A DNA stretch of 64,000 nucleotides from Ornithinimicrobium sp. F0845 (GTDB taxonomy: Bacteria > Actinomycetota > Actinomycetes > Actinomycetales > Dermatophilaceae), in NCBI RefSeq assembly GCF_023015765.1, contig NZ_JALKAL010000002.1, forward strand, positions 221,778-285,777, given 5' to 3'. Positions within the stretch are counted from its first letter, which is position 1; each line of letters opens with the position of its first letter. The notes under the pieces are model-generated. The model did not search any database and was not told where the DNA came from. It worked only from the letters and a program-made list of their open reading frames with translations. The translations under genes and the position numbers were made by a program. This document shows positions 672 to 61,292 of the stretch, piece after piece.

Positions 672-3356
672 TCAGCGGTTGGTGATGCCCTCCGGTGCAC
701 AGATGAAGTGCGCGACCATCGCGGTCCACCCGGTCTGGTGCGAGGCGCCGAGTCCGGTGCCGTCGTCGCCGTTGAAGTACTCGCTGAAGGTCGGGTGCTC
801 GTCCCACAGCGGACCGCTCGGGTGGTGGATCGGGGTGCTCGGCCGCCGGCCGTCCGGACCGGGCCGGAACAACGAGACCAACCGCTGCTCCAGCTCGGTC
901 GCGACCTGCGTCAGTGACCGCTCCTGACCCGACCCGGTCGGGAACTCCACCCGCAGGTCGACCCCGGCTCCCCGGCCGTAGATCCGCAGGGCATCGGTGA
1001 GCAGCGAGTTGACCGGGAACCAGATCGGCCCGCGCCAGTTGGAGTTGCCGCCGAACATCCCCGACCGGGACTCGGCCGGCTCATAGCTCAGTCCGAGCTC
1101 GTCCCCACCGACCCGCACCCTCAACCCGTCCCGGTGGGCCGCCGACAGCGACCGGATCCCGTGCGGCGCCAGGAACTCGTCCTCATCCACGAGATATCCC
1201 ACCAGCGACGCGAGCTGCTCCTGGCTGACCATCGACAGGGTGCGGACCGAGTAGCCGCGGAAGTTGGTGTGCAGCAACGCATCCTGCAGCTCCGGTCGCC
1301 GCTCGGTCCATCCCCGCAGGAAGTCGGTGAGGTCGGGCAGCTCCTGCGCCACCCAGTTCGGCAGGATGGAGACCCCGGTCAGGGGGAGGAGACCGACCAT
1401 CGAGCGGACCGGCATCCGGTGGGCCGTCCCATCGGCCTCCACCAGGACGTCCTGGAAGAAGCTCACCTCCGGGTCCCACAGCGAGGTGTCGTCGGTGCCG
1501 GTGTCCTCCATGACCTCGGCGATGGCCAGGAAGTGGACCAGGAACTTGGTGGCGACCTCGTCCCACGCGCGGTCCTCGCGGGCGAGCTCCACCGCCATCC
1601 GCAGCATCCGCAGGCAGAACATCCCCATCCAGGCCGTGGCGTCCGCCTGCTCCAGCCGGCCCCCACCGGGCAGCTCCTCGGAGCGATCGAAGAGCCCGAC
1701 GTTGTCCATCCCGAGGAAGCCGCCCTCGAAGACGTTGGACCCGTCGGCGTCCTTGCGGTTCACCCACCACGGGAAGTTGAGCAGCATCTTGAGCACGATC
1801 CGCTGCAGGAAGTCCCGGTCCCGGTTGCCGTCGATGCTGTAGACCTGCCACGCCGCCCACGGGTGCACCGGCGGGTTGACGTCGGAGAAGTTCCACTCGT
1901 AGGCCGGCAGCTGACCATTGGGGTGCATCGCCCACTCGCGGCACATCAGCAGCAGCTGGAACTTGGCGAACGCCGGGTCGACGTGGGCCAGCGGCACGCA
2001 GTGGAAGGCCAGGTCCCAGGTCGCGAACCAGGGATACTCCCACTCGTCCGGCATCGAGATGACCTCGGCCAGGTTGACGTGCTGCCAGTGGGCGTTGCGG
2101 CCAGTATGCCGATCCGCCCGTCCGGGGGGTGGCGGCGGCTGGGCGGGGTCCCCGGCGAGCCAACGGGGCACGTCATACAGATAGAGCTGCTTGCCCCACT
2201 GCAGCCCGGCGAACGCCCGGCGCGCGATGTGGCGGTCCTCCTCGGCCGTGTCCTGCGGGATCACCGCGTCGTAGAAGGCGTCAGCCTCCAGGCCGCGCTG
2301 CGTGAGCACCTCCTCGGCTTCTCCCTTGGGCTCCCCGCCAGAGAGCTGGGTCAGGCGCACCCGCACCGTGACGCTCTCCCCCGGCGGCACGGCCTCGAAG
2401 CTCCACCACAGGGCGGCCTTGGTGCCGACGCGGTCCGGGTTGGTGGCCTCCTCGCCGTGGACGACGGTCTGGTTGATCGCGTCCTTGGGGTATGCCGTGT
2501 GGTCCGGCGGCGCCGCGTCCTCGCCGTAGAGGGAGGCCAGGTTGGTCTCGTTGTCGCAGAAGAGCACCCGCGGCGAACCGTCAGCGCTCAGGCGGACCCG
2601 GCCCAGCTCGTGGTGGCGTGCCTCCAGGACCACCTGCTCCCGGTGCGGGTCGCCGCTTCCCTGCTCCCCGGCATACTCCCCCGGCGCGGTGGCGACCACG
2701 ATCTCCGGGCGACGGTCGTCCAGCCCCCAGGACCAGGTGTTGCGGAACCAGAGGTGCGGCAGCAGGTGCAGCGGCGCGGCGTCCGGCCCGTGGTTGGTCG
2801 CGGTGACCTCCGTGACGAGGTCGGTCGGCGACGCCTTGGCGTGCGTGACGACCACGTCGAAGAAGCGGTCCTGCTGCAGCACCCCGGTGTCGGTCAGCTC
2901 GAACTCGTCGTCCGCGAAGCCGCGGGCGGCGTTGCGCTCGACCAGCTCCCGGTAGGGAAAGGCGGCCTGCGGGTAGCGGTAGAGCCACCGGGCGTAGCTG
3001 TGCGTGGGCGTGCCGTCGAGCGCCCACCAGTACTCCTTGGCGTCCTCACCGTGGTTGCCCTGCGGGTTGGTGAGGCCGAAGAGCCGCTCCTTGAGCCGGT
3101 CGTCGCGCCCGTTCCACAGCGCCAGGCCGAGGTTGAGGTAGCCGTCGAGGTCGCAGATGCCCGCGAGCCCGTCCTCGCCCCAGCGGTAGGTGCGCTGGTG
3201 GGCGTGGTCGAAGGGAAAGTAGTCCCACGCGTTGCCGTCCGCGGAGTAGTCCTCCCGCACCGTGCCCCACTGGCGGGCCGAGACGTAGGGCCCCCAGGTC
3301 CGCCAGGGCGCGCGGGGGTCGTCGGACTCCTCGAGGCGTTGCTGCTCGGCGTTCAC
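672..3356 (-). CDS. MGH1-like / GH63-type glucosidase
   Basis: A protein of 894 residues in the family annotated in actinobacteria as glucosidase with an MGH1-like (alpha/alpha)6 barrel, related to GH63. The N-terminal third is beta-rich with aromatic segments ([20 protein letters not shown]), and the rest carries barrel motifs such as [22 protein letters not shown] and [13 protein letters not shown]. It probably trims glucose from an oligosaccharide; the substrate cannot be read from the sequence. There is no signal peptide, so it should be cytosolic. I chose the GTG at 3356 (reading [10 protein letters not shown]). The frame stays open far upstream, but that part runs through the 32-bp repeats and into antisense of the oxygenase gene. 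Confidence 0.85.
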
Positions 3357-3368
3357 GCCACCGACCCT

Positions 3369-3464
3369 CCCACAATTTTGGTAGTGGTTCTGTCGGTCCG
3401 CCCCGCATTTTCGTAGTGGTTTTGTCGGTCCGGCCCGCCTTTTTTCAGGGCTTTCGTCGATCCC
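3369..3464 (+). repeat. 32-bp tandem repeat locus 1 (3 units)
   Basis: Three head-to-tail units of exactly 32 bp at 3369-3400, 3401-3432 and 3433-3464. Units 1 and 2 differ at few positions and share a core TAGTGGTTYTGTCGGTCCG; unit 3 is divergent. Each can form a 4-bp stem before TTYTG or TTTCG: CCAC/GTGG, CCGC/GTGG with one wobble pair, and GCCC/GGGC. It lies upstream of the glucosidase start. Nothing else is seen in the remainder of 3357-3538. Confidence 0.75.
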
Positions 3465-3538
3465 TCGCGCTCCGTTGGCGTTTCGGGAGTCCGCTCGGAT
3501 CCGCTGGCGCGCACGTCCTGCCGCTCGAGCCCCGCGCC

Positions 3539-4558: not shown

Positions 4559-4607
4559 GGGTCGGGTTCCTTCGGGGTATGTCGGTGGTCGGGTGCGGGG
4601 GGTCGGC

Positions 4608-7023: not shown

Positions 7024-7626
7024 ATGCCGCAGGACCACTATTTCTCCGCCGAACCCGCCTCGCCCGCCGAGCTGCGGGAGCGTGACGTGGTGCTCGCGGG
7101 CCGTCCCGTGACGGTGCAGACGGCGGCCGGGATCTTCTCCCCCGACGGCATCGACAAGGGCACCGCCGTGCTGCTCAAGCACGCCCCGGAGCCACCGGCG
7201 ACCGGCACCTTCCTCGACCTGGGCAGCGGCTGGGGACCCATGGCGCTCACCCTGGCCCTGCACTCCCCCGCGGCGACCGTCCACGCGGTCGACGTCAACC
7301 AGCGGGCCCTCGACCTGGTGCGTCGCAACGCCGCCGTCCTCGGCTGCGCCGTCACCGCCCTGGCACCGGAGGACGTGCCCGAGCACACGGCATACGACCT
7401 GATCTGGTCCAACCCGCCGATCCGGGTCGGCAAGGCCGTGCTGCACGGGATGATGCGGACCTGGCTGCCCCGGCTGGCGGCCGGCGGTGAGGCCTGGCTG
7501 GTGGTCCAGAAGAACCTCGGGGCCGACTCGCTGCTGAGGTGGCTGACCACCGAGTTCCCCGACCTGGTCGTCGACCGGCCCGCCACGAGCGGCGGCTTCC
7601 GGCTCATCCGCGTGGCACGTCCCTGA
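7024..7626 (+). CDS. RsmC-like class I methyltransferase (16S rRNA guanine N2 type)
   Basis: 200 residues forming a single Rossmann methyltransferase domain. Visible are the SAM motif FLDLGSGWGPMAL, an acidic motif AVDVNQRA, and NPPIRVGK, the NPP[IF]R-type motif of RsmC/RlmG enzymes that methylate a guanine N2. The N-terminus (MPQDHYFSAEPASP) matches the short actinobacterial form that lacks the degenerate N-terminal domain of E. coli RsmC. A TACACT hexamer at 7011-7016 lies just before the ATG, so the mRNA may have almost no leader. Its last 23 bp overlap the convergent membrane-protein gene. Confidence 0.85.
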   Translation: MPQDHYFSAEPASPAELRERDVVLAGRPVTVQTAAGIFSPDGIDKGTAVLLKHAPEPPATGTFLDLGSGWGPMALTLALHSPAATVHAVDVNQRALDLVRRNAAVLGCAVTALAPEDVPEHTAYDLIWSNPPIRVGKAVLHGMMRTWLPRLAAGGEAWLVVQKNLGADSLLRWLTTEFPDLVVDRPATSGGFRLIRVARP

Positions 7627-8023: not shown

Positions 8024-8442
8024 CCCACCGTCAGGACCGACACCATCGCCGGGTGCGGGATGCAGTGGTAGGGGTAGTCCCCCGGCTCGTCCGGCGCGGT
8101 GAAGGTGACCGTCTCACCCGGGCCGACCGCGACGTCGAAGATGCCCTCCTCGTCTGAGGTCACGGTGTGCCCGACGCTGTCCTCGTTGGTCACCGTGATC
8201 GTCGCGCCGGGCTCGACGGCGCCGGTCAGGGTGTACTCGAAGTCGGTGATCGTGATCAGGGCTGCGCCGTCCTCGACGGTGGCGGCGGGCGACTCCGGCT
8301 CCTCCTCGCCGGAGCAGCCGGACAGCACGGCCGGGAGTATGCCGAGGGCCAGGATCGCGGTCGCCGCGCGGCGGGCGCTGGGCCGGCTCGGGCGACGGCT
8401 GCCGGTCGGGAGGGTGCTCGAGGTGTGGGTCCACAGGCTCAT
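8020..8442 (-). CDS. cupredoxin-domain lipoprotein
   Basis: 140 residues: a basic N-terminus, a hydrophobic stretch ending in a lipobox (VLSGC), an acidic linker, then a plastocyanin/amicyanin-like beta domain. Type-1 copper ligands can be read: His in VGHTVTSDEEG, then Cys, His and Met in YHCIPHPAM. It should sit on the outer membrane face and carry copper or electrons. I used the ATG at 8442 because it gives a proper signal peptide. It is coupled to the downstream four-helix protein, which may be its membrane partner (inference). Confidence 0.85.
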   Translation of the reverse strand: MSLWTHTSSTLPTGSRRPSRPSARRAATAILALGILPAVLSGCSGEEEPESPAATVEDGAALITITDFEYTLTGAVEPGATITVTNEDSVGHTVTSDEEGIFDVAVGPGETVTFTAPDEPGDYPYHCIPHPAMVSVLTVG

Positions 8443-8525: not shown

Positions 8526-9461
8526 TCAGCGGGTCGAGGCTGCGCTCAGGACCGCCGCGAGGGCGCGCTCCACCAGGTCGCCCGCGTCGTGCTCGAGCCA
8601 CGTGATGCGCGGGTCGGGTCGGAACCACGCCTCCTGGCGGCGCACCAGGCGGCGGGTGGCGGTGACCGTGGCCTCCCGCGCCGCCTGCTCGGTGACCTCA
8701 CCGTCGAAGAACGCCAGGACCTGGGCGTAGCCGATCGCTCGGGAGGCGGTGCGCCCCTCCCGCAGACCCGCCTGCTCCAGGGCGCGCACCTCCGCCACCA
8801 GGTCCTGCTGCCACATCCGGTCCACCCGGCGTGCGATCCGCTCGTCCAGCACCGGACGCTCGGCGGTCAGGCCGAGCTGCACCGTCGGCACGGCATACTC
8901 CCGCCGCGGCAGCGTGGCGCTGAACGGGCGACCGGTCAGCTCGATCACCTCCAGCGCCCGGACGATCCGGCGACCGTTGCGCGGCTCGATGCGCTCGGCC
9001 GCCTCCGGGTCGACCCGGACCAGGTGCGCGTAGAGGGCGTCGACCCCCATCGCCTCCAGCTCGGTCTCCCACCGCTCCCGCACGACAGGATCGGTCGGGG
9101 GGATCTCCAGCAGGTCGAGCAGGGCTCGCACGTAGAGCCCGGAGCCGCCGACGACCACCGGGACGTGGCCACGCGCGCGGATCGCATCCAGATCGACCCG
9201 CGCGGCGGTCTGGTAGGCCGCGACGCTGGCCTCCCGCCTCACGTCGAGGACGTCCAGCTGGTGGTGAGTGACCCCCTGGCGCTCCGCAGTGGTCAGCTTG
9301 GCCGTGCCGATGTCCATGCCGCGGTAGAGCTGGGAGGCGTCGGCGTTGATGATCTCGCCGCCCAGCGCCTGGGCCAGGGCGACTCCCAGATCGGACTTGC
9401 CCGTGGCGGTCGCCCCGACGACGGCGACCACGGGCAGCTCGCTGGTCTCGATTCCGGCCAC
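8526..9461 (-). CDS. miaA: tRNA dimethylallyltransferase MiaA
   Basis: 311 residues. MiaA transfers a dimethylallyl group to N6 of A37 in tRNAs that read UNN codons. Visible are the P-loop GATATGKS, the DASQLYRGMDIGTAK substrate motif, GGSGLYVRALLD, and the C-terminal RRQEAWFR tRNA-binding helix. The frame is open upstream to 9593, but that part is made of the 32-bp repeats. I therefore chose the GTG at 9461 (MAGIETSELP), about ten residues before the conserved VVAVVGATATGKS. The start is not certain. Confidence 0.92.
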   Translation of the reverse strand: MAGIETSELPVVAVVGATATGKSDLGVALAQALGGEIINADASQLYRGMDIGTAKLTTAERQGVTHHQLDVLDVRREASVAAYQTAARVDLDAIRARGHVPVVVGGSGLYVRALLDLLEIPPTDPVVRERWETELEAMGVDALYAHLVRVDPEAAERIEPRNGRRIVRALEVIELTGRPFSATLPRREYAVPTVQLGLTAERPVLDERIARRVDRMWQQDLVAEVRALEQAGLREGRTASRAIGYAQVLAFFDGEVTEQAAREATVTATRRLVRRQEAWFRPDPRITWLEHDAGDLVERALAAVLSAASTR

Positions 9462-9619: not shown

Positions 9620-10456
9620 ATGAATGGGCCGCCGCTGGAACTGCACGTCATCGCCGACTCGACCGGTGACACCGCTGCGCGCGTGGCGCGCGCCTCTGCG
9701 GCGCAGTATGCCGCCTACGACGTGCGGATCATCCGGCACCCGCGGATCACCTCGGCGGCCGGACTGCGGGCGGTGATCCGCACGCTGGACCCGGCCGAGC
9801 ACCGCATGGCGGTCTTCTCCACCGTCGTCGACGACGAGCTGCGGGCGCTGGTCGCCGAGCTCTGCGCGGAGCGCGGCATCCCGCACGCCGACCTGCTGGA
9901 GCCCGCGCTGAGCGCCCTGCAGTCCGCGACCGGCGCCGCCCCCGAGCGCGTCATCCGGCCGGTCGGCGTGGGCGAGGACTACTTCAAGCGGATCCAGGCG
10001 ATGGAGTTCGCCATCGCCAACGACGACGGGCACCTGACCAACCCGCTGACCCAGGCCGACATCGTGCTGATCGGGGTGTCGCGCTCGGGCAAGACGCCGC
10101 TGTCGATGTATCTGGGGTACCTGGGCTACCGCACCTCCAACATCCCGCTGGTGCGGGGGATCGCGCCGCCGGATGAGCTCTTCTCGGTCGACCGCTGGAA
10201 GATCGTGGGGCTGACCCTGGACCCCGAGCGGCTCAAGGAGATCCGGCAGAAGCGGGTCCGGGCGCTCGGCAGCCTGCGGCAGGGCGACGGCTACACCGAG
10301 CTGATACGGATCTATGAGGAGCTGGACGAGGTCGGCGCGATCCAGCGCCGGCTCGGCTGCCCCGTCATCGACACCACGGCCCTGGCCCTGGAGGAGGCCG
10401 CCGGCCGGGTGATCGAGATCGTGGAGCGGCGCCGCGAGGCCGCGACCGGCAGCTGA
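9620..10456 (+). CDS. pyruvate,phosphate dikinase regulatory protein (bifunctional kinase/pyrophosphorylase)
   Basis: 278 residues of the DUF299/PSRP family. Members inactivate PPDK or PEP synthase by ADP-dependent phosphorylation of a Thr near the catalytic His, and reactivate it by phosphorolysis. Visible are the N-terminal HVIADSTGDTA motif and the P-loop GVSRSGKTPLSMYL (about 148-161). The ppdK gene follows after 141 bp on the same strand, the usual pairing. I chose the ATG at 9620 because earlier in-frame codons run through the repeat array. The last 17 bp, including the stop, are duplicated directly downstream. Confidence 0.93.
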   Translation: MNGPPLELHVIADSTGDTAARVARASAAQYAAYDVRIIRHPRITSAAGLRAVIRTLDPAEHRMAVFSTVVDDELRALVAELCAERGIPHADLLEPALSALQSATGAAPERVIRPVGVGEDYFKRIQAMEFAIANDDGHLTNPLTQADIVLIGVSRSGKTPLSMYLGYLGYRTSNIPLVRGIAPPDELFSVDRWKIVGLTLDPERLKEIRQKRVRALGSLRQGDGYTELIRIYEELDEVGAIQRRLGCPVIDTTALALEEAAGRVIEIVERRREAATGS

Positions 10457-13355: not shown

Positions 13356-14130
13356 GGACCGGGGGCCCGACGGCATACTCACCCCCGCGCAGCGCGCCGC
13401 CGAGCTCACCGAGCTCGGCGGCTTCGCCGTGTTCCAGGTCGGCACCGACGGACTGCTCAGCCTGTCGACGGCGCTGGACGCCGAGCACCTCGCCGAGCGC
13501 TTCGCCGCCACGCACGCCGGTCTGGCGGCAGGCACAGGCTTGCGGCGGGAGCAGGTGATGCCCAGGACCGCGGTCTCGGCCGCCCAGGTGGGCCTCGTGT
13601 CGCGGTTCTGGTCGATCGCCCTGGCCTCCGTGGCGCTGCACGACTGGGTCCCCGCGCTGACGACCGACCTGGTGCGTGTGGCCCCCGGCCACCGCAACCC
13701 CTCCCCCATCGCCCTCGGCGACCCCGACGCCGGCCAGAGGGTGGAGGAACTGAGCGAGACGGTCACGACCCTCGAGACCCTCGTTGTCCACGGCGCGGTC
13801 GCCGCCGTGACGCGGGCGTGCCAGGAGCATGGCCGCACCTCGGCCACCGTCCTGGTGAGCAACGCGGCCTCCAGCCTGGTCGCGGCCGCGCGGGTCGTGG
13901 GCGGCAAGGTGCCCGGGCGGGCCGGGTTCCTCGATGCGGTGACCCGCCACCTGCTGCAACGGCCCTGGCTGGCCGCGGGAGGCTCCTACCGGAGGGCCGA
14001 GGACGACGCCGGGGCTGGTGAGGCGTTCAAGCGCTCTGGCTGCTGCCTCTACTACCGCCTCCCCGGCCACGGCCTGTGCCCCGACTGCGTGCTCGTGCGC
14101 CCGGGACATCCTGCTGACGAGCACCACTGA
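13345..14130 (+). CDS. FhuF-like (2Fe-2S) protein, putative siderophore-iron reductase
   Basis: 261 residues. The C-terminus carries the four-cysteine cluster SGCCLYYRLPGHGLCPDC (Cys-Cys-x10-Cys-x2-Cys), typical of FhuF-type 2Fe-2S proteins that reduce ferric siderophores in the cytosol. The rest is helical with several short HxD or RxxH patches but no further motif I can name. The GTG at 13345 lies inside the last repeat unit and lacks a clear ribosome-binding site, so a start further in cannot be excluded. A predicted iron box lies 64 bp after its stop, which supports a role in iron use. Confidence 0.8.
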   Translation: MTAPDRGPDGILTPAQRAAELTELGGFAVFQVGTDGLLSLSTALDAEHLAERFAATHAGLAAGTGLRREQVMPRTAVSAAQVGLVSRFWSIALASVALHDWVPALTTDLVRVAPGHRNPSPIALGDPDAGQRVEELSETVTTLETLVVHGAVAAVTRACQEHGRTSATVLVSNAASSLVAAARVVGGKVPGRAGFLDAVTRHLLQRPWLAAGGSYRRAEDDAGAGEAFKRSGCCLYYRLPGHGLCPDCVLVRPGHPADEHH

Positions 14131-15179: not shown

Positions 15180-16370
15180 TCAGCGGGGCAGCACGACGCC
15201 CCTGCGCTCCTGCTCGTCATAGGTGTAGACCTCGCGGCCGTCGATCCAGACGCGCAGGGCACGGGACTGCAGGTCGAGCGGGTCCCCGGACCAGAGCACC
15301 AGGTCGGCGTCCTTCCCGACCGCGAGCGAGCCGACCCGGTCGGCGACGCCCATGACGGTGGCCGGGTTGATCGTCACCGAGCGCAGCGCGGCATCGCGGT
15401 CCATGCCTTCCTTCACCGCGAGCGCCACCTGGGTGATCAGGTGCTCGATCGGGACGACCGGGTGGTCGGTGATGATCGAGACCTGCACGCCGGCCCTGTC
15501 CAGTATGCCGGGGGCCGAGGGAGTGCGCTCGCGCACCTCCACCTTGGAGCGGCTGACGATGAGGGGGCCGTAAAGCACCGGCACGCCCTTCGCTGCCACC
15601 AGGTCGGCGATCAGGTAGCTCTCGGTCCCGTGGTCGAGGACCAGCTGGTAGCCGAACTCCTCGGCGATCCGGATCGCGGTGGCGATGTCGTCGGCGCGGT
15701 GGCAGTGCTGCCGCCACGGGATCTCCCGGTTGAGGACCTGAACGAGAGCCTGGTTGACCAGGTGACCCTCGGCATACTCCCCGTCCTTGGTGGCCTTGCT
15801 CGACTTCTCGGCGTAGTTGCGGGCCTCGGTGAAGGCCTTGCGCAGGATCAGCGCCACGCCGAGGCGGGTGGACGGCGTCTTTTTCTGGTCGCCGTAGACG
15901 CGCTTGGGGTTCTCGCCCAGCGCCGCCTTGAGGCCGGAGGGGCTACGCAGCACCATCTCGTCGACATAGCGGCCGTAGGTCTTCAGCGCGACGGTGAGGC
16001 CGCCGATCGGGTTGCCCGAGCCCGGGTTGACGTTGACCGAGGTGATGCCGCCCCCGAGGGCGTCGTCGAAGCCCTGCTCGCGCGGGTTGATCCCGTCGAG
16101 CGCCCGGGCGGCCGCCATCACCGGGTCGGTCATCTCGTTGGTGTCCTGGCCGGCCCAGCCCTCACCCTCCTCCCACACGCCGAGGTGCACGTGGGCGTCG
16201 ATCAGTCCCGGCAGGACCCACTGGCCCGCGGCGTCCACGACCTCCGCACCGTCCGGCAGCGCGACGTCCGCGCCGAGTGCGGTGATCCGGCCGTCCTCCA
16301 CGAGCACCGTCCCGTCGAAGGATTCACCCTCGACGGGCACGACGTGGGCATTGACGAGAGCAAGGGTCAT
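15180..16370 (-). CDS. amidohydrolase, imidazolonepropionase/dihydroorotase-like fold
   Basis: 396 residues of the metal-dependent amidohydrolase superfamily. It has the N-terminal beta sandwich and LPGLIDAHVHLG (HxH metal site), a later HCHRADDI segment and VLDHGTES, then the closing beta domain with VGSLAVGKDADLVLW. Members hydrolyse cyclic amides or related C-N bonds; this subgroup is annotated only as amidohydrolase. The start at 16370 gives the usual MTLALVNAHVVP opening; an upstream in-frame ATG at 16427 would add an Arg-rich stretch with no similarity. Confidence 0.88.
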   Translation of the reverse strand: MTLALVNAHVVPVEGESFDGTVLVEDGRITALGADVALPDGAEVVDAAGQWVLPGLIDAHVHLGVWEEGEGWAGQDTNEMTDPVMAAARALDGINPREQGFDDALGGGITSVNVNPGSGNPIGGLTVALKTYGRYVDEMVLRSPSGLKAALGENPKRVYGDQKKTPSTRLGVALILRKAFTEARNYAEKSSKATKDGEYAEGHLVNQALVQVLNREIPWRQHCHRADDIATAIRIAEEFGYQLVLDHGTESYLIADLVAAKGVPVLYGPLIVSRSKVEVRERTPSAPGILDRAGVQVSIITDHPVVPIEHLITQVALAVKEGMDRDAALRSVTINPATVMGVADRVGSLAVGKDADLVLWSGDPLDLQSRALRVWIDGREVYTYDEQERRGVVLPR

Positions 16371-26195: not shown

Positions 26196-26633
26196 TCACA
26201 GCAACGCCCGCACGTCGGCAAGCTCGGTGGCGTCGTACCAGGAGAGCTCGATCACGTGCTCATCGTCCGAGACGGACGACACCTCACCCACTAGGTCGTC
26301 ACCGGCGTGCAGGGAGGCGATCCTCGGGAGGGTGACGGATCCGCGGAGCAGGACCCGCGAACCGGTCGGGCCACTGTCATCGATGGTATCGCGGGCGACG
26401 TCAGCGGCCGCCACGAGCACCGGCTGCCCCTCCTGCAGGCAGTAGGCCGCTGCGTCCTGGAGCGCGGCGTACTCCCACGACTCCTCGTCACCGGAGGGGT
26501 CGGACCGGCGCACCGACTCGGTGACGACGAACGCGACCAGGTCACCCGGCATACTCCCGGTCTCGTGCAGGGTCTGCGCCAGGTCGGCGGTGAGGGGGAG
26601 GTAGCAGCGGACCTGTGGGGGGATGGGGGCCAT
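26196..26633 (-). CDS. DUF6912-like protein
   Basis: 145 residues. The opening (RCYLPLTADLAQTL) and ESWEYAALQDAAAYCL match the small actinobacterial family named DUF6912, function unknown. The ATG at 26633 has AGGAGAG at ideal spacing, so I prefer it over the GTG at 26657, which would overlap the stop of the preceding acyltransferase gene. It lies 13 bp after that gene and 55 bp before pruA, and is probably in one transcript with both. Confidence 0.65.
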   Translation of the reverse strand: MAPIPPQVRCYLPLTADLAQTLHETGSMPGDLVAFVVTESVRRSDPSGDEESWEYAALQDAAAYCLQEGQPVLVAAADVARDTIDDSGPTGSRVLLRGSVTLPRIASLHAGDDLVGEVSSVSDDEHVIELSWYDATELADVRALL

Positions 26634-26646: not shown

Positions 26647-28062
26647 TCAGTCGTCACCGGCGACCAGCTCCGCGAGCGCCGAGTCGATGCACTCGGCGAG
26701 CACTTCCAGGTCGGTCATGGCGTCCCGGTCGGCGTTGAGGCCGAGGTGGACCTGACCGTCGTAGGACGTCAGACCGACCGCGAGAGCCTGGCCCTGGGCC
26801 AGGGGGATCACCGGGTAGCTCGCGATCAGGCGTGCGGGGCCGGCATACCTCGCCTCCTGGGGGCCCGGGACGTTGCTGATCACGAGGTTGAACATGCGAC
26901 GGGACATCGCGCTCGCGGCCCGGGCCGCCATGGAGTGGAGCGTGGGCGCAGCAAAGCCGGCGAGCCCGGCCAGCCCCGCGGCGCCGATCGCCCGACCGTC
27001 GCTGAGCTGCTTGACCATCCGGAAGCTCACCTGCTGCAGGCGCATGGCCGGACTCGGCTCGCCGATGGGCAGGTCGACGAACGCCGCCACGACCGGTCCG
27101 CCGACGTGGGAGTCACCCGCGGCGTCCTCGACCGACAACGGCACCATGGCGCGCAGCGTGCTCGCCGCGCTGATCGGCTCGCCCCGGGTCATCAACCACT
27201 CGCGCAGCGCCCCCGTGAGCGTGGCCAGCACCACGTCGTTGACCGTGACGTGGCCGAGGTCCCCCGCCCCGAACTTGCGGCGGCGCACCGCCCGGAAGTC
27301 CTCCAGGTCGAGGTCGATCAGGCGGACCCGGCGGGCCGAGCCGACGAGCGCGTTGAGGGGGGTGTGCGGTGCGGGACTGGCGGCCGTGCGGACCAGGGCG
27401 GTGCCGGCCTGACGGCCGACCTCGGCCACCTTCGCGCCGGTGTGCCGCAGGTCGGTGAAGCCGCCCCGGACCCCGTCCCAGAGCCGACGCGGGGAGGTGA
27501 CCGTGCTGATCGCCGAACGGGTGAGCAGCTCGACGTCGCTGGGCTCGGGTGCCGGTGTCCACGTCTGCACGATGGGGGCCACGTCCGTCGGGGAGGCGTC
27601 GAGGATGACCTGGCCCATGTCCAGCCCGTGGACACCGTCCACCATCGCCTGGTGGGTCTTGGTCACGATGGCGAACCGGTCGTCCTGCAGCCCCTCGACG
27701 AGGTAGACCTCCCAGAGCGGGCGCTCACGATCGAGCAACCTGGACTGGATGCGGGCGACGAACTCCGAGAGCTGCTCCATGGTGCCCGGCCGGGGCAGCC
27801 CGGACCGGCGCACGTGATAGGTCAGGTCGAAGTCAGCGTCGTCGACCCACACCGGACCCCCCAGCCCGGCGGGCACCTGGCGCACCCGCTGCCGGTAGCG
27901 GTGCACGTAGGCCATCCGGTTGGACACGAGGTCCAGCAGGGTCTCGTAGTCGAAGCCCTCCTCCGGGGTATCGAACACCAGCACCGAACCGACGTGCATG
28001 GCCGTGACCGGACCCTCGAGGTAGAGGAACGAGGAGTCCACCGGCGTCAGACGATCTAGCAC
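26647..28062 (-). CDS. wax ester synthase/diacylglycerol acyltransferase family protein
   Basis: 471 residues of the WS/DGAT family, which esterifies long-chain alcohols or diacylglycerol with acyl-CoA. The N-terminal LTPVDSSFLYLEG and the C-terminal NLVISNVPGPQE are diagnostic. The active-site motif HHxxxDG reads HQAMVDG here: the second His, usually taken as the catalytic base, is Gln. Either the enzyme works differently, uses another base, or is not an acyltransferase. It lies 12 bp after the CpaE-like gene. Confidence 0.85.
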   Translation of the reverse strand: MLDRLTPVDSSFLYLEGPVTAMHVGSVLVFDTPEEGFDYETLLDLVSNRMAYVHRYRQRVRQVPAGLGGPVWVDDADFDLTYHVRRSGLPRPGTMEQLSEFVARIQSRLLDRERPLWEVYLVEGLQDDRFAIVTKTHQAMVDGVHGLDMGQVILDASPTDVAPIVQTWTPAPEPSDVELLTRSAISTVTSPRRLWDGVRGGFTDLRHTGAKVAEVGRQAGTALVRTAASPAPHTPLNALVGSARRVRLIDLDLEDFRAVRRRKFGAGDLGHVTVNDVVLATLTGALREWLMTRGEPISAASTLRAMVPLSVEDAAGDSHVGGPVVAAFVDLPIGEPSPAMRLQQVSFRMVKQLSDGRAIGAAGLAGLAGFAAPTLHSMAARAASAMSRRMFNLVISNVPGPQEARYAGPARLIASYPVIPLAQGQALAVGLTSYDGQVHLGLNADRDAMTDLEVLAECIDSALAELVAGDD

Positions 28063-39706: not shown

Positions 39707-40903
39707 TCAGGCACGCTCGACGCGGTCCAGACCCAGCCAGGTCGCCAACTGACCCAGCTCCTCCCTCAGCTCGGCTTCCGCCCTCGGCGGCGCCCCGGAC
39801 TCCAGGTGCGTCCGCCGGACCAGCAGCCGGCCGGCAGCCCGGTCAGCCTTGACGTCCACCCTCGCCACGAGTTCCTCCCCCAGCAGGAACGGCAGCACGT
39901 AGTAGCCGAAGACCCGCTTCGGCTCCGGCACATAGATCTCGATCCGGTAGTGGAAGTCGAAGAGCCGCTCGGTGCGGGCCCGCTCCCAGACCAGCGAGTC
40001 GAACGGACTCAGCAGGGCCCGCGCGCGGACCGACCGGGGCCGCCGCGCCGCGGCGTCGAGGTAGGCCGGTCGGTCCCAGCCCCGGACGGTCACCTCCTCT
40101 ACCTCCCCCAGCCGGACCAGCTCCGCCAGGGCCGGACCGGCCATCGACTGCTTCACCCGGAAGTAGTCGCGCAGGTCCGCTGCGGTGCCGATGCCGTGCG
40201 CCCGGACCGAGCGTCGCAGCAGCTCGACACCAGACTCGAACTCGTCCGGCGCCCCCGGCTGCCCGGGAGCGCGAAGCAGCACGTCTGGGGGAAGGACCCA
40301 GGAGGGATCGGCATACCGCCGCTCGAACTGGCTGTTGCGCCCCGAGCTGACGATCTGGCCCCCCCAGAACAGGTGCTCCAGGCACTCCTTGACCAGCGAC
40401 CAGTTCCAGCCCCAGTTCTCACGGGTGCGGACCTCGCCGTGCTCCACGAGGGCGTCCACCTCTCGGGCCGTCAGGGGTCCCTGCTCACGGACCACCTCGC
40501 GCACCGTCTCCAGGACCCCCGGGTGCTCCCGCGCCACGCGTCGGCTCCAGGAGTTGTCGTCCGCGGTGGCCATGCGGAACCCCAGGTAGGGCCAGGTCTC
40601 CGGCGGGACCAGGCTCGCGACGTGCGCCCACGTCTCGACCAGCCGGCGTGGAGCGCGCGAGCGCGGGCCGGTGCCGTCCCGCGCACGGTCCAGCAGCGCC
40701 GTGTCGTAGGGCCCGAGCCGAGAGAAGAAGGGGAGGTACTGGCTGCGCGTCACGACGTTGACGCTGTCGATCTGGATCACCTGCAGCCGGTCGATGACGC
40801 GCTGCACGTGCCGCATGGTGGGGACTGCGGGCCGCGGAACGGTGAAGCCCTGGGCCGCCAGGGCGATCCGTCGAGCCTGTCCGGCCGTCAGCTCAGCTCG
40901 CAT
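39707..40903 (-). CDS. YcaQ/AlkX-type DNA glycosylase (HTH_42, winged-helix)
   Basis: 398 residues. The N-terminal winged helices and the VIQIDSVNVV segment carry the catalytic Q-x-D/Q pattern of this family, here QID. YcaQ-type enzymes unhook interstrand crosslinks and bulky alkyl adducts; some relatives protect producers of DNA-damaging antibiotics. The C-terminus contains the conserved LLSPFDSLVWERARTERLF and FGYYVLPFLLGEEL. It stands alone, between the nuclease and hpf. No biosynthetic genes are seen nearby, so a general repair role is likely. Confidence 0.88.
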   Translation of the reverse strand: MRAELTAGQARRIALAAQGFTVPRPAVPTMRHVQRVIDRLQVIQIDSVNVVTRSQYLPFFSRLGPYDTALLDRARDGTGPRSRAPRRLVETWAHVASLVPPETWPYLGFRMATADDNSWSRRVAREHPGVLETVREVVREQGPLTAREVDALVEHGEVRTRENWGWNWSLVKECLEHLFWGGQIVSSGRNSQFERRYADPSWVLPPDVLLRAPGQPGAPDEFESGVELLRRSVRAHGIGTAADLRDYFRVKQSMAGPALAELVRLGEVEEVTVRGWDRPAYLDAAARRPRSVRARALLSPFDSLVWERARTERLFDFHYRIEIYVPEPKRVFGYYVLPFLLGEELVARVDVKADRAAGRLLVRRTHLESGAPPRAEAELREELGQLATWLGLDRVERA

Positions 40904-46609: not shown

Positions 46610-47287
46610 TCAGGCCGGCCCGGCCTTGTAACCGACCCCACGGACGGTCAGCACGATCTGGGGATTCTCCGGGTCCTTCTCGATCTTGGCCCGGAGCCGC
46701 TGGACGTGGACGTTGACCAGACGGGTGTCCCCGGCGTGGCGGTAGCCCCAGACCTTCTCCAGCAGCGACTCGCGGTCGAAGACGTGGTTGGGTCGGCTGG
46801 CCAGCGCGACGAGGAGGTCGAACTCGAGCGGCGTCAGCGGCAGCTCCACGCCCTCCCGCTTGACGGTGTGGCCCGCGACGTCGACGACCAGGTCGCCGAC
46901 GCTGAGCTGGGACGGCTCGCGCCGGTCACTGCGCCGCAGGCGGGCCCGGATCCGGGCCAGCAGCTCCTGCGGCTTGAACGGCTTGACGACATAGTCGTCG
47001 GCTCCGGCCTCCAGGCCGGCGACGACGTCCTTGGTGTCGGTGCGTGCGGTGAGCATCACGATCGGGACGCCGGACTCCGCCCTCAGGTGACGGCATACTT
47101 CCACGCCGTTGAGAGTGGGCAGCATGACGTCGAGCAGGACCAGGTCGGGCCGGAACTCGCGGAAGAGCGCGACGGCCCGCCCACCGTCGGCGCAGTGCGC
47201 CACCTCGAGACCCTCCTTGCGGAGCACGATCCCGAGCATCTCGGCGAGGGCCTGGTCGTCATCGACCACCAAAACGCGTGCGTTCAA
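46610..47287 (-). CDS. mtrA: MtrA response regulator
   Basis: 225 residues of the OmpR class: receiver domain with LVVDDDQ, phospho-Asp in LVLLDVMLP, and KPFKPQEL, then a winged helix (LTPLEFDLLVALASRPNHVF, RLVNVHVQRLRAKIE, VRGVGYKAG). The DNA-binding helix is that of MtrA. First of the mtrA-mtrB-lpqB operon, 9 bp from the sahH gene, which precedes it on the same strand. Confidence 0.97.
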   Translation of the reverse strand: MNARVLVVDDDQALAEMLGIVLRKEGLEVAHCADGGRAVALFREFRPDLVLLDVMLPTLNGVEVCRHLRAESGVPIVMLTARTDTKDVVAGLEAGADDYVVKPFKPQELLARIRARLRRSDRREPSQLSVGDLVVDVAGHTVKREGVELPLTPLEFDLLVALASRPNHVFDRESLLEKVWGYRHAGDTRLVNVHVQRLRAKIEKDPENPQIVLTVRGVGYKAGPA

Positions 47288-47296: not shown

Positions 47297-48763
<1,467 letters not shown>

Positions 48764-50821: not shown

Positions 50822-52066
50822 TCAGGTCAGCTGCTGCCGGATCGCCTCCAGCCCGGTTGCCACCTCGGCAAAGCTCGTCGACAACGGAGCGAGCCCCAGC
50901 CGGAGTCCGTCGGGCGCGCGGAAGTCCGGGATGACACCCTCCTGCCACAGCCGCCCGTTGACCTCGCGGAAGTCAGGTCGTCGGATCGTGATGTGCCCGC
51001 CCCGCCGCTCGTGCTCCCGCGGCGAGGCGATGGTCACCCCGAGCGCAGCCGGCCAGGACTCGACGATCCGCCAGGCGAGGTCGGTCAGCGCGAGCGACTT
51101 GGTGCGCACGGCTCCGATGCCGGCCTCGGCCAGCTGCTCCACGGACAGTCGTAGCGGGACCATGCTGACCACCGGCGGGGTGCCGCTGACCAGGGAGCGG
51201 ACGCCCGCCGCCGGCTGGTAGCCCGGCCCCATGAGGAACGGGTCGCGCCGGCCCATCCAGCCCTGGATCGGCTGCTGGAGTATGCCGTGGTGCCGGCTGG
51301 CCAGGTAGGCGAAGGCCGGCGACCCGGGACCGCCGTTGAGGTACTTGTAGGTGCAGCCGACCGCGCTGTCCACCTCCCACGCATCCAGCTCGATCGGCAC
51401 CGAGCCGGCCGAGTGGCACAGGTCCCACAGGACCAGGCCGCCGCTCTCGTGCACGAGCCGGGTGATCGCCCGTGCATCGGCGAGGTAGCCCGAGCGATAG
51501 GCGACGTGGCTCAGCAGCACGACCGCGGTCCGCTCCCCCACCACCTCGGCCACCTGCTCGACGGTCACCCCGGAGGCCGGGTCCGACTCGATCCACACCA
51601 GCTCCAGGCCACGCTCGGCGGCCACTCCCTCGGCGACGTAGCGGTCGGTCGGGAAGTTGTCGGTGTCCACCACGATCTGGGTCCGCGCCGGATCGGCCGC
51701 TACCTGGCCGTCGGCGAGCGCCCGCAGCATCTTGTAGAGCATGACGGTGGTGGAGTCCGCCACGACGGTCTGCCCGGCGGCAGCCCCGAGAGCCGCTGCC
51801 GCCACCAGGTCACCGGTCTGCTCCGGCCACCGCATCCAGGCCTCGTCCCAGCCGCGGATCAGTCGGGTCCCCCATTCCTGCTCCACGAAGCGCGCCAGCT
51901 CCTGCGCGGTGCCGCGCACCGGACGCCCGAGGCTGTTGCCGTCGAAGTAGGCCCGCAGCCCCTCGGCCGGTTCGAAGCGCTCGGCGAAGGGGGCGAGCGG
52001 GTCCTGCGCGTCGAGGTCGGCGGCGACCGCGGACCAGTCCTCGGTCGTCACGGCACGCTCACTCAT
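50822..52066 (-). CDS. kynU: kynureninase
   Basis: 414 residues, a fold-type I PLP enzyme. It hydrolyses kynurenine to anthranilate and alanine. The PLP lysine is in CTYKYLNGGPGSPAF; GNSLGRP near the N-terminus and WDLCHSAGSVPIEL are also typical. It overlaps the tryptophan dioxygenase gene by 8 bp, so the two form one operon. Kynurenine formamidase, the step between them, is not recognised in the window. Confidence 0.95.
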   Translation of the reverse strand: MSERAVTTEDWSAVAADLDAQDPLAPFAERFEPAEGLRAYFDGNSLGRPVRGTAQELARFVEQEWGTRLIRGWDEAWMRWPEQTGDLVAAAALGAAAGQTVVADSTTVMLYKMLRALADGQVAADPARTQIVVDTDNFPTDRYVAEGVAAERGLELVWIESDPASGVTVEQVAEVVGERTAVVLLSHVAYRSGYLADARAITRLVHESGGLVLWDLCHSAGSVPIELDAWEVDSAVGCTYKYLNGGPGSPAFAYLASRHHGILQQPIQGWMGRRDPFLMGPGYQPAAGVRSLVSGTPPVVSMVPLRLSVEQLAEAGIGAVRTKSLALTDLAWRIVESWPAALGVTIASPREHERRGGHITIRRPDFREVNGRLWQEGVIPDFRAPDGLRLGLAPLSTSFAEVATGLEAIRQQLT

Positions 52067-53000
52067 GGTGGTATCCCTCCGGGGTGACGTCCTGGATGCG
52101 GGACCGCACGGCATACAGCTCGGGAAAGAAGGTGAGGTCCAGCGCCCGCCGCAGGAAGGGCACCCCCGATGAGCCACCCGTCCCCCGTTTGGACCCGATG
52201 ATCCGCTCCACCGTCTTCAGGTGCCGGAAGCGCCAGAACTGGAAGTTGTCCTCGACGTCGATGAGCTCCTCGCACAGCTCGTAGACGCCCCAGTGCTGCT
52301 CGGGGTCGGCGTAGATCTGCCCCAGCAGCTCGACGAGCCCCTCGTTCTGCTCGTGCGGCCGCGACCAGTCCCGGTCGAGGAGCTCGGCCGGCACGGCGTA
52401 GCCCTGCCGGGACAGCCAGGCCAGCACCTCGTCATACAGGCTGGGCTCGTGCAGCAGGGCCGACAGCTCGGCGTGCACCGCAGCGTCGTGCTCGAAGACG
52501 CGCAGCATCTCGGCGTTCTTGTTGCCGAGGATGAATTCGACGCAGCGGTACTGCCAGGACTGGAAGCCCGAACCGGTGGCCAGGAACGAACGGAACTGGG
52601 CGTACTCGCTGGGCGTCAGCGTCGCCAGCACGGTCCACTGCTCGGTCAGCACCGTCTGGATGTCCTTGACCCGGGCCAGTCGCTTCAGCGCCGGCCGCGG
52701 GTCGTCGGCCCGGATCAGGTCGCGGGCGGAGCGCAGCTCGTGGAGCATCAGCTTCAACCACAGCTCGGAGGTCTGGTGCTGGATGATGAACAGCATCTCG
52801 TCGTGCCGGGTGGGCACCGAGCGCGGGTGCTGCGCGGACAGCACCTTGCCCAGGTCGAGGTACTCCCCGTAGGAGAGGTTGCGGGCGAAGTCGCGCTCGA
52901 TCCCCTCCTCGAGATCCCGCTGGGCAGTATGCCGTGGCTCCGGTTGGTCGGGGACCGTCCGGTCTGACCCGGGTTGGCCGGGCGCACTCTGGTGGGACAC
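52059..53000 (-). CDS. kynA: tryptophan 2,3-dioxygenase
   Basis: 313 residues, heme-dependent. It opens the indole ring of Trp to N-formylkynurenine, the first step of the kynurenine route. Motifs RHDEMLFIIQHQTSELWLK and SGFQSWQYRCVEFILGNK and the end VPFLRRALDLTFFPELYA are diagnostic. I chose the GTG at 53000, with GAGGAGG 5 bp before it. An N-terminal extension of about 30 residues is Pro/Gln-rich. First gene of kynA-kynU. Confidence 0.95.
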   Translation of the reverse strand: MSHQSAPGQPGSDRTVPDQPEPRHTAQRDLEEGIERDFARNLSYGEYLDLGKVLSAQHPRSVPTRHDEMLFIIQHQTSELWLKLMLHELRSARDLIRADDPRPALKRLARVKDIQTVLTEQWTVLATLTPSEYAQFRSFLATGSGFQSWQYRCVEFILGNKNAEMLRVFEHDAAVHAELSALLHEPSLYDEVLAWLSRQGYAVPAELLDRDWSRPHEQNEGLVELLGQIYADPEQHWGVYELCEELIDVEDNFQFWRFRHLKTVERIIGSKRGTGGSSGVPFLRRALDLTFFPELYAVRSRIQDVTPEGYHHE

Positions 53001-55977: not shown

Positions 55978-56002
55978 CCTGGCACACGGCATACTCACCC
56001 GT

Positions 56003-56980
56003 GTGGGGAAGGACGACCGGACCGACGGACCGGCGACCGATGCCGACGTGCCGGCGTGGGTCGCCGGCCTCGGGCTGCCCGGTCTGGCCGACATCCACGT
56101 GCACTTCCTGCCCCAGCCGGTGATGGACAAGGTCTGGGCCTATTTCGACGCGCACGGCTGGTCGGAGGGGGGCGACTGGACGATCCACTACCGCCTGCCC
56201 GAGGACGAGCGTCTGGCCGTCGTCCGGCACCTGGGCCTGCGCGCCGTCCCGGCCCTGACCTACGCCCACAAGCCCGGCATGGCCGCCTGGCTGAACGAGT
56301 GGTGCGCCGACTTCGCGCGCCGGGTCCCCGACGCGGTGCCCTGCGGGACCTTCTTCCCGGAACCGGAGGCGGCCCACTACGTGCCGGAGGCGCTGGAGCG
56401 GGGCGTCCGGCTGTTCAAGACGCACGTCACCGTCGGGGACTTCGACCCCACCGACCCGCTCCTGGACCCCGCGTGGGCGGCGGTGCAGGAGGCCGGGGTC
56501 CCGGTGGTACTCCACGCCGGCTCGGGGCCGCACCCCGGCCGGCACACCGGCCCAGCACCGGTGGCCGCGCTGCTGCGGCGCTTCCCACGGCTGGTGCTGG
56601 TCATCGCGCACCTGGGCATGCCCGAGCACCATGAGTTCGCCGACCTCGCCGAGCAGTATGCCGGGGTGCACCTGGACACCACCATGGCCGGGACCGACTA
56701 CGTGCAGGCCCGTTCCCCCCTGCCGCCGGACTACCTGCCCAGGTTGCGGCACCTGCAGGACAAGGTGGTGCTCGGCGCGGACTTCCCCAACATCCCCTAT
56801 CCCTACGCACACCAGCTGCAGGCGCTGGCGCGGTGGGACCTCGGCGACGACTGGTTGCGAGACGTGCTGTGGCACAACGGTGCCCGCCTGATGCGCCTGC
56901 CGCAGACTCGCCCGGAGCCCGCCCCTGCGCCAGCCCCTGACCCGGCACCAGGACCCGACCCGGCGGAAGGCGGCCGGTGA
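56003..56980 (+). CDS. amidohydrolase (PF04909-type TIM barrel)
   Basis: 325 residues. Metal ligands are visible: HVH in GLADIHVHFLP, His in VVLHAGSG, His in VIAHLGMPEHHEF, and Asp in GADFPN. This is the family of ACMSD and related decarboxylases or hydrolases. The C-terminus is a Pro/Ala tail. A role in aromatic breakdown beyond kynA-kynU is possible but is only inferred from neighbourhood. The GTG at 56003 lies right after a CGGCATAC motif and has no ribosome-binding site, suggesting a leaderless mRNA. Confidence 0.85.
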   Translation: MGKDDRTDGPATDADVPAWVAGLGLPGLADIHVHFLPQPVMDKVWAYFDAHGWSEGGDWTIHYRLPEDERLAVVRHLGLRAVPALTYAHKPGMAAWLNEWCADFARRVPDAVPCGTFFPEPEAAHYVPEALERGVRLFKTHVTVGDFDPTDPLLDPAWAAVQEAGVPVVLHAGSGPHPGRHTGPAPVAALLRRFPRLVLVIAHLGMPEHHEFADLAEQYAGVHLDTTMAGTDYVQARSPLPPDYLPRLRHLQDKVVLGADFPNIPYPYAHQLQALARWDLGDDWLRDVLWHNGARLMRLPQTRPEPAPAPAPDPAPGPDPAEGGR

Positions 56981-57901: not shown

Positions 57902-59182
57902 TCAGCGGGTGCGGTCGTTGAGATCGGCCACGTGCGGGGAGACCGACGGGTCGAGGCCCAGCCCCAGCGCCAGGTAGGTCGCCGTGAAGTCAGCGGTGGC
58001 GACGAGTTCCGCCAGCCTGGTCAGTGGCCGTCCCGGTTGGGCGATGACGTCCATCACCCGCACGCCGGCCTCCCGTGCCGTCACGAGCACCGCATCGGTC
58101 AGCGCCTCGACCTGCACCGACTCCTGCGTCGGCGGGTCGACCGGCGCGTCCCGCAGGGTCAGCAGACCGAGCTGCGGCAGGGACGGGCCGTCCAGGAAGG
58201 GGTCGGCGAAGATGTCCCGTCCACCCTCCCCGCGCGGGATCTCCGCGAGGTCGCCCTCCGGCTCGTCGAACAGGTGCGGCTCCCAGCCGCTGGTGTCGAT
58301 GTCGCCGAGCTTGATCCGGCCCGCGTCATAGGTGCCGGGGCGCCGGCCCCCGATCGTCGTGTAGGGGCCGTCGAAGCAGGCCACGATCTGGCTCGCCGCG
58401 TCCGGGAGCTCCCCCCACGGAGCGGGGATGCGTGCGGTGCGCGCGAGCATCGAGGAGGCCCGGGCGGCCGCGACCCCGCTCAGCGGTGAGTCGCCCAGCA
58501 CCATCGGCACGGTCTCGGCCAGCTGCAGCGCGAGGAGCTTGGCCGGGTTGACGAACGACTCTGATGCCGGGCGGTAGGCCTCGGCCGCCTCGTCCAGCCG
58601 CTCGGCGACCTCACTCATCCCCTCCGCTGGGGCGTCGACGAGACCGACGGCGTCCGCGCCGAGTAGCACCGGCACCAGGAGGCTCCACAGTGCGGTCCGG
58701 GAACTGGTCCGCGAGCGGCCCACGCCGATGTGCACCCCCCGGGCGCGTCGGCATACGTCCGCCAGTGGTGAGTCGTCGGCACCGACGGTGAGGAGGGAGG
58801 ACCCCCGCCGGGCCGCCTCCGCCGCGATCGCCAGCGGTCCCGGGGCCCGGCCCGAGAGGGAGACAGCCACCACGAGATCGAGCGGGCCGACCCACCCGGG
58901 CAGCGGCAGGTTGCGGCGGGCCTGCACCGGCACCGGTGAGCCCGGCTCGGCCAGCAGCTCGAGGACGTCCGCGACCAGGGCCGAGCCCCCAAGTGCGGCG
59001 ACCAGGACCGACCTGGGCCGGTCGAGCCGCGCCAGTCGGTCGATGCCGGCCTCCTGGGCCAGCGTGACCGACTCGCGGACCTGGGCACCCGCTGTCGCCA
59101 AGGCGCGCAGCGTCTGCCGACTGTCCTTGCGCAGCAGCTCCTCGGAGTCGTCGAGCAGTGCGTCGTCGATGTGCGGTGCCAT
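57902..59182 (-). CDS. SIS-domain sugar isomerase-like protein (Rv3256c-like)
   Basis: 426 residues. Two SIS folds are visible (VLVAALGGSALVADVLELL and the second near PAKLLALQLAETVPMV), as in bifunctional phosphoglucose/phosphomannose isomerases. Next to manB it should feed mannose or GDP-mannose synthesis, which mycobacteria use for lipoglycans. The conserved ESFVNPAKLLA and GRIKLGDIDTSGWEPHLF are family-specific. The ATG at 59182 is 9 bp after the Trm112-like stop: one operon with manB. Confidence 0.85.
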   Translation of the reverse strand: MAPHIDDALLDDSEELLRKDSRQTLRALATAGAQVRESVTLAQEAGIDRLARLDRPRSVLVAALGGSALVADVLELLAEPGSPVPVQARRNLPLPGWVGPLDLVVAVSLSGRAPGPLAIAAEAARRGSSLLTVGADDSPLADVCRRARGVHIGVGRSRTSSRTALWSLLVPVLLGADAVGLVDAPAEGMSEVAERLDEAAEAYRPASESFVNPAKLLALQLAETVPMVLGDSPLSGVAAARASSMLARTARIPAPWGELPDAASQIVACFDGPYTTIGGRRPGTYDAGRIKLGDIDTSGWEPHLFDEPEGDLAEIPRGEGGRDIFADPFLDGPSLPQLGLLTLRDAPVDPPTQESVQVEALTDAVLVTAREAGVRVMDVIAQPGRPLTRLAELVATADFTATYLALGLGLDPSVSPHVADLNDRTR

Positions 59183-60816: not shown

Positions 60817-60826
60817 GCGGGTGAGC

Positions 60827-61186
60827 CTATCGGTCGCGCAGCAGGCGCAGGTGACCGCGGCGACCGATCTCGGTCACGCTGGCCTCCGCCGGACGCAGCG
60901 GTGCCGCACCGGCGTCATCCCCCCGGACGGCCTTGTGCTCCCGCACCGCCTCGGCCAGGGCCACCAGGTCATCCGGCGGCTCCTCCCCCATGGCCAGGCG
61001 CACGACGTCCCAGCCACGCGGGGCCGTCAGCCGGCGCGCGTGGTTGTCGCAGAGGTCGTAGGAGTGCGGCTCGGCGTAGGTGGCCAGGGGACCCAGGACC
61101 GCGGTCTGCTCCGCATAGACATAGGTCAGCGTGGCGAGTGCCTGGTGGGCACACGCGGTCTTGGAGCACTGCCGGGAGATAGCCAC
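60827..61186 (-). CDS. DUF3499 protein
   Basis: 119 residues. Cysteines in RQCSKTACAHQA and the YDLCDNHARR pair would hold one zinc (C-x4-C ... C-x2-H). The family is actinobacterial, always near manB (Rv3258c), function unknown; a nucleic-acid or protein-binding role is plausible. I chose the GTG at 61186, after a TACAGT hexamer (part of a CGGCATAC motif) 8 bp away, which suggests a leaderless mRNA. The longer frame has an Arg-rich start with no similarity. Confidence 0.85.
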   Translation of the reverse strand: MAISRQCSKTACAHQALATLTYVYAEQTAVLGPLATYAEPHSYDLCDNHARRLTAPRGWDVVRLAMGEEPPDDLVALAEAVREHKAVRGDDAGAAPLRPAEASVTEIGRRGHLRLLRDR

Positions 61187-61292
61187 GATCCAAGACTGTA
61201 TGCCGTTCCTCGCCTCCCGCGTCGCAACCACGCCGAGACGGGACGCGCCCGCTCCCTGCCGGGTGTCCCGCCCCCCGGCCTGAGGGTGTTGG

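Follow-up and report, generated by a model that had tools for sequence, protein, structure and literature searches.

A frequent non-palindromic 8-mer of Ornithinimicrobium and its family is a probable DNA uptake sequence with dialects

We analyzed a 64-kb stretch of the genome of Ornithinimicrobium sp. F0845 (assembly GCF_023015765.1, contig NZ_JALKAL010000002.1, positions 221,778 to 285,777; hereafter called the window), in which a preliminary description had picked out one over-represented word, the 8-mer CGGCATAC, and had placed a DNA-uptake-type sequence first among its possible functions. CGGCATAC is not self-complementary, and the reported 26 copies, their positions and their orientations proved exact. 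Every GGCATAC heptamer of the window sits within CGGCATAC (26/26). Fourteen exact matches lie on the plus strand, at 2669..2676, 7388..7395, 8891..8898, 13371..13378, 15770..15777, 26547..26554, 26841..26848, 29933..29940, 40309..40316, 47091..47098, 48253..48260, 52109..52116, 55987..55994, and 58749..58756. The 12 exact matches on the minus strand lie at 2104..2111, 2490..2497, 8337..8344, 9706..9713, 15503..15510, 23181..23188, 30472..30479, 32005..32012, 51280..51287, 52927..52934, and 56656..56663, and at 61198..61205, which together with the plus-strand copy at 55987..55994 is outside the called genes. As first described, the word supplies ATA codons at 8337 (a rare codon), 13372, 15503, and 51280 and GTA codons at 47092 and 58750, and T is the commonest following base (16 of 26 copies).

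The excess over chance was large by each measure. One hundred dinucleotide shuffles of the window contained on average 0.88 copies of CGGCATAC (maximum 4), and 100 synonymous-codon shuffles, which left the called proteins (genes from a simple custom caller), the codon usage, and the non-coding sequence unchanged, contained on average 4.0 (maximum 8), compared to the 26 observed. The word ranks first among the 8-mers of the window by Markov z-score, and it is also the top 8-mer in a 464-kb sample composed of the window and positions 1-400000 of contig C1 (197 copies compared to 11.8 expected from an order-3 Markov model). The 400 kb of this sample from C1 hold 171 copies compared to 41.8 under codon-preserving shuffles. 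A whole-genome count close to expectation had been proposed as grounds for discarding the word; instead, the genome (4.2 Mb in 59 contigs; G000 in our numbering, where G, g, and L numbers stand for genomes, genera, and loci) contains 1692 copies, 828 forward and 864 reverse, compared to 112 (60+52) copies of the reversed word.

The claim that the word overrides codon choice was borne out in the called genes of the 464-kb sample, where 20 of 56 ATA codons and 82 of 473 TAT codons fall inside CGGCATAC. Genes hold 164 of the 197 copies, 98 against the direction of the gene and 66 with it. The further claim that no amino-acid preference is involved held in part: all six frames are enriched in the codon-shuffle test, but protein sequence matters somewhat, as the commonest genic contexts encode Tyr-Ala or Ala-Tyr. 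The preferred context in this genome is C-A-CGGCATAC-T-n-C, and the third base of the word is loose, with CGACATAC (52 copies compared to 10.7 expected), CGTCATAC (38 compared to 11.9), and CGCCATAC (23 compared to 10.7) also in excess in the 464-kb sample. An apparent depletion of one-mismatch neighbors, such as CAGCATAC (0 compared to 9.5), was set aside, because its expectation is inflated by CGGCATAC itself. The base after the word varies among relatives: T follows 118 of 197 copies in this genome, G follows 99 of 141 copies in G130, and C follows 25 of 37 copies in G020, a congener of the window's genome.

Spacing statistics were calculated without the first 25 kb of C1. At short scale, the gaps between copies were more even than random, with a coefficient of variation of 0.85 (p = 0.014) that was lower than that of all 65 control 8-mers, and the dispersion at 10 kb was 0.61 (p = 0.03). 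A tandem repeat at 208282-208355 of C1 (L049) carries three copies of CGGCATAC 33 bp apart. The first 20 kb of C1 (positions 1-20000; L039) contain no copy, have a low GC content (0.61-0.65), and encode a cluster resembling glycosyltransferases and O-antigen ligase. We rejected the motif-free first 25 kb as a mobile element: eight of ten scanned proteins match known families, and seven of these are glycosyltransferases or O-antigen ligase. The start of C1 is thus only indirect evidence on whether the word is scarce in mobile DNA.

The comparison with relatives proposed in the preliminary description showed that the word is a trait of the family (Dermatophilaceae), with variant spellings in some members. 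In the NCBI taxonomy, the genus Serinicoccus is assigned to Ornithinimicrobiaceae and Arsenicicoccus to Intrasporangiaceae. At least 80 copies of CGGCATAC per Mb occur in 113 of 186 family genomes, and 73 genomes fall below this threshold, which was chosen after the counts were seen; seven values lie between 55 and 141 per Mb. The maxima are 4724 copies in G130 and 1356 per Mb in G166. The 31 genomes of the window's own genus contain 394 to 1901 copies, except for G009 with 50. Elsewhere in the order, the word stays at or below 180 copies in all of the 361 genomes counted, which represent 19 other families; the highest counts there, each given with that of the reversed word, are 180 and 195 in G468, 177 and 135 in G389, and 167 and 184 in G204. 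In some large outside genomes, the word reaches about three times the reversed count (e.g., 131 and 45 in G297).

We screened 80-160 kb from each of 15 genomes, 13 of them poor in CGGCATAC, for 8-mers enriched over codon shuffles in several frames. Words above expectation in all six frames were CGGCATAC itself (G000 and G130), CGCCGTAC (G114), CGGCGTAC (G120), and CCCCTTCG (G094). Related words appeared in G044 (GGCGTACG), G045 (CGGCGTAC), and G032 (CGTCGTAC and CGCCGTAC), and less certain ones, with some frames missing, in G113 (CCGCATCG) and G009 (GCCGCTAC). The words CGTCCGGC in G184, CGGTGACG in G051, and others like them were too weak to be called dialects. CCCCTTCG is unlike the other dialects and may be a separate word of genus g27 (75 copies in 80 kb of G094 compared to about 23 after codon shuffling; L111-L114).

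CGGCATAC, CGGCGTAC, and CGCCGTAC are joined by single-letter steps, and counts across 46 whole genomes bear out the latter two as variants, one or two letters away from CGGCATAC, in several relatives that lack CGGCATAC itself. Within one genus, CGGCATAC occurs 3681 times in G115, 1062 times in G116, and 19 times in G114, and CGCCGTAC occurs 193, 429, and 3117 times, respectively, compared to 141 times in the window's genome. CGCCGTAC also reaches 1031 to 1550 copies in G120, G119, G118, G045, G032, and G033, with at most 579 in the others of the 46. CGGCGTAC reaches 4185 copies in G119, 3903 in G120, 2618 in G033, 2366 in G032, 2216 in G045, 2111 in G118, 1463 in G114, and 1359 in G044. The window's genome has 139 copies, and the remaining CGGCATAC-rich genomes among the 46 range from 70 to 374. 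Motif-poor genomes with no dialect call, such as G184, G047, G031, G152, G160, G178, and G126, contain 502-648 copies of CGGCGTAC; G034 (785) and G049 (752) are not clearly above this range and were not counted as having the CGGCGTAC dialect. Within the order, CGGCGTACG has no similar density outside the family, with 256 per Mb in G044 and no more than about 91 per Mb in the 228 genomes drawn from other families. On a quick tree of tadA-B-C from 49 genomes, the CGGCATAC label appears in scattered places and requires 9 changes, compared to a shuffled mean of 14.8 (1 of 500 shuffles was as low). The five CGGCGTAC genomes all belong to a seven-member group (SH-aLRT 98) whose other two members are G049 and G059, the latter a CGGCATAC genome.

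Judged by its genes, the host appears to possess a DNA-uptake machine, since ComEC, ComEA, TadE-like pilins, and a core tadA are all present and would together import DNA. ComEC was matched in 179 of 184 family genomes, and the five others are draft assemblies with 330 to 760 contigs and a completeness of 58 to 95%. ComEA adjoins ComEC in 19 of 20 loci read; the search pattern missed it in G160. As ComEC is nearly universal and ComEA occurs in motif-rich and motif-poor genomes alike, we rejected the former as a discriminating marker and the latter as an on/off marker. TadE-like pilins were found in 25 of 25 genomes tried, and the family has in common one core Tad locus, composed of tadA-tadB-tadC-flp with three small pilins. 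In the window's genome, this locus lies on the same contig as the window, about 21 kb past its right end. The genes are not all adjacent in G114, where some 35-40 kb separate tadABC from the flp/pilin genes (L172, L167).

A whole or partial match to core tadA was found in 159 of 184 genomes (E 1e-100). When 36 genomes with no match or a weak one were searched again at 1e-30, 19 gave either no match or just paralogues with 30 to 41% identity. Among these 19 are all genomes of six genera (g2, g12, g16, g28, g29, and g38), each of them motif-poor, such that a core tadA went unrecognized in 6 of 22 motif-poor and 0 of 31 motif-rich genera (Fisher p = 0.003, uncorrected for phylogeny and with a post-hoc threshold). 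Within the tad locus of 16 motif-rich congeneric genomes, CGGCATAC sites were retained at a fraction of 0.364 compared to 0.112 for random 8-mers, although only seven positions enter this comparison; four of the 16 genomes, including that of the window, have no CGGCATAC in the locus.

In nine of the 36 genomes searched again (G138, G146, G110, G129, G177, G159, G161, G163, and G034), which belong to six genera, tadA is in two parts on one contig, 3.9 to 78.6 kb apart and broken at several positions. We read the whole inserts of G110 and G177, 23.6 of 70.6 kb in G138, and 22.6 of 78.6 kb in G146 (L209-L216). A large serine recombinase with Resolvase and Recombinase domains is present in three of these four inserts. 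In G138 and G177, it adjoins the break, and in G146, it lies about 3 kb into the insert; the G110 insert carries an IS110 transposase. The four inserts contain 4 copies of CGGCATAC in 65.7 kb compared to 14 copies in 39.3 kb of flanking DNA (p = 0.0008 if sites are independent). The split tadA genes resemble mobile disruptions of competence genes, and this likeness points indirectly, without amounting to proof, to the core Tad locus as a putative DNA-uptake machine. In general, integration into conserved genes is common. Insertions of prophages and islands into comK, comYC, and comM have been interpreted as a means of attacking transformation (PMC4774983); the elements described here likewise sit inside a gene of a putative uptake machine, and they differ in that the target is a Tad ATPase with a putative role in transformation.

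From these results, we conclude, with a probability of roughly 0.7, that CGGCATAC is a DNA uptake sequence, that is, a word by which these bacteria recognize their own DNA in natural transformation. This candidate of the preliminary description is favored by the dialects, the enrichment in all frames, the few copies in the four mobile inserts, and the way core tadA is distributed among the genera. In most of the features tested, the word behaves as an uptake sequence would, with an excess of inverted pairs missing. On this interpretation, the bacteria would be transformable, the word would raise uptake, the Tad pilus would be the machine, and a pilus or Com protein would read the word. Cells would import DNA through the Tad (Flp) pilus, ComEA, and ComEC, favoring fragments that carry the word. 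The imported fragments would recombine into the chromosome, and alleles with the word would spread, which is the proposed reason that the word accumulates; it would do so on both strands and in any frame where the protein tolerates it. Drift of the reader protein within a lineage would be followed by drift of the word, giving rise to the dialects CGGCATAC, CGGCGTAC, CGCCGTAC, and perhaps others.

Several results weigh against this conclusion. Five motif-rich genomes (G013, G017, G103, G131, and G181) have no recognized core tadA; the completeness of G017, G131, and G181 is only 68-75%, but G013 and G103 are complete genomes, which implies that the pilus was either recently lost there or is dispensable. 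Congeners with a partial tadA (G006, G016, and G019) are not clearly poorer in CGGCATAC, and many motif-poor genomes retain ComEC, ComEA, and tadA. Among the 13 motif-poor genomes sampled for dialects, no clear replacement word emerged in G031, G160, G051, or G184, with only a hint in G038. The scarcity in inserts comes from two genomes (insert compared to flank, 2 and 10 in G138; 1 and 4 in G110), and G146 (0 and 0) and G177 (1 and 0) contribute nothing to it. The evenness of spacing is not significant at 20 kb (dispersion 0.79, p = 0.29). Close pairs are not in excess, with 8 gaps of less than 100 bp in any orientation compared to 7.5 expected. In known uptake sequences, inverted pairs that serve as terminators are common and not essential.

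No receptor emerged from the candidates considered. A type IVa pilus was rejected as the machine, because PilM was matched in just 7 of 184 family genomes. The Tad minor pilin B of G038 is 46-52% identical to that of the four congeners of G038, compared to 60-68% for the neighboring pilins. This excess divergence was seen in G038 and G009 and not in the dialect-switched G114, whose 68% identity to G116 is above the 58% that G115 shares with G116. Across the family, the residuals for minor pilin B were small and similar to those for pilin C, and a role of this pilin as the receptor was not supported. A single literature search, on Ornithinimicrobium, yielded no data on transformation in these genera.

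The alternative that survives best, which we nevertheless regard as improbable, is that CGGCATAC is a word of unknown purpose, like HIP1 of the cyanobacteria, that plays no part in uptake and owes its persistence to a nucleoid protein, mismatch repair, or a DNA methyltransferase. HIP1 is a palindromic 8-mer that is highly repeated throughout a whole clade, and in this last respect it resembles the word described here. Non-polar, genome-wide enrichment in all frames would look alike under both explanations, and the somewhat even spacing and the retention of sites in the tad locus above random 8-mers (0.364 compared to 0.112 at the seven positions) fit a HIP1-like word as well. Such a word would not account readily for the lack of a palindrome or for the single-letter differences between relatives; HIP1 is not known to have such letter-by-letter dialects. 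The scarcity in the sampled mobile inserts and the want of the word in all six genera that lack a recognized core tadA likewise favor an uptake sequence.

It is much less probable that the word is a self mark for phage defense by restriction-modification, BREX, or DISARM. The scarcity in mobile inserts would fit such a mark too, but we know of no system of these kinds that enriches its own site tens of fold in the host, and the spread through the family and the letter-by-letter dialects are unlike the patchy occurrence of defense systems.

A polar signal for recombination (Chi) or chromosome segregation (KOPS) is about as improbable, if not slightly more so. Chi words differ between lineages, as do the dialects here. 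However, the lack of strand skew noted in the preliminary description extends to 96:101 in the 464-kb sample and to near-even counts without consistent bias in the 50-kb bins of C1, as judged on this one 400-kb contig without a located origin or terminus, and the genome as a whole has the nearly equal 828 forward and 864 reverse copies. Last, a codon-pair or dipeptide artefact is refuted: although most genic copies encode Tyr-Ala or Ala-Tyr, synonymous shuffles with fixed proteins remove most copies (26 to 4.0 in the window; 171 to 41.8 in C1), all six frames are enriched, and 20 of the 56 ATA codons are due to the word.

Returning to a DNA uptake sequence as the preferred explanation, we compared the word with known systems. 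The DNA uptake sequences (DUS) of Neisseriaceae are short non-palindromic words with about one to three thousand copies and with dialects a few letters apart between related species (PMC3630211), and CGGCATAC is alike in its length, lack of a palindrome, copy range, and few-letter dialects. It differs in belonging to another phylum with another envelope, in a machine that is likely a Tad rather than a type IVa pilus, in its GC-rich form (CGnCRTAC), and in the missing excess of close pairs; moreover, a receptor (ComP) is known in Neisseria, whereas a receptor for the present word is hypothetical. The uptake signal sequence (USS) of Pasteurellaceae is also a genome-wide word, with two dialects, and its recently predicted receptor is a minor pilin (PMC12616744); that word is unrelated to CGGCATAC, and the phylum and the filament are different. 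Among actinobacteria, Micrococcus luteus loses transformation when comEC is deleted, and its transformation apparatus includes Flp (Tad) pili (PMC4322843); the main text of this source does not contain the phrase "uptake sequence".

Two groups of side observations concern the window itself. The word GGTACC (the KpnI word) is strongly avoided, with 1 site compared to about 21 expected (2 compared to 41.7 when both strands are counted), and CGGTAC is likewise low (3 compared to 39.4). The minus-strand gene at 35646-39503, adjoining secA, contains no copy of CGGCATAC; its product, 1285 residues long, combines a lamin-tail domain with exonuclease/endonuclease/phosphatase and CWB2 cell-wall-binding domains and is by these domains a putative surface nuclease.

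Required uptake sequences were called unique to Neisseria and Pasteurellaceae in 2013 (PMC3630211). In a literature search whose scope excluded preprints and most subscription journals, and which for the word itself covered 20 of the 58 papers that contain its letters, we found no report of this word or of uptake sequences in Actinobacteria. We lean, by a modest margin over even odds, toward a broader proposal, namely that the family may have independently evolved a third DUS system, in a Gram-positive phylum, which would be read by Tad or Com proteins, would have changed dialect several times within one family, and would be silenced by elements in tadA. If true, a third origin, in Actinobacteria and with a different pilus, would help in asking why only some competent lineages mark their own DNA. 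The family would also offer several natural dialect switches for tracing the receptor, and placing the word on donor DNA would provide a genetic handle in Ornithinimicrobium, Serinicoccus, and Arsenicicoccus.

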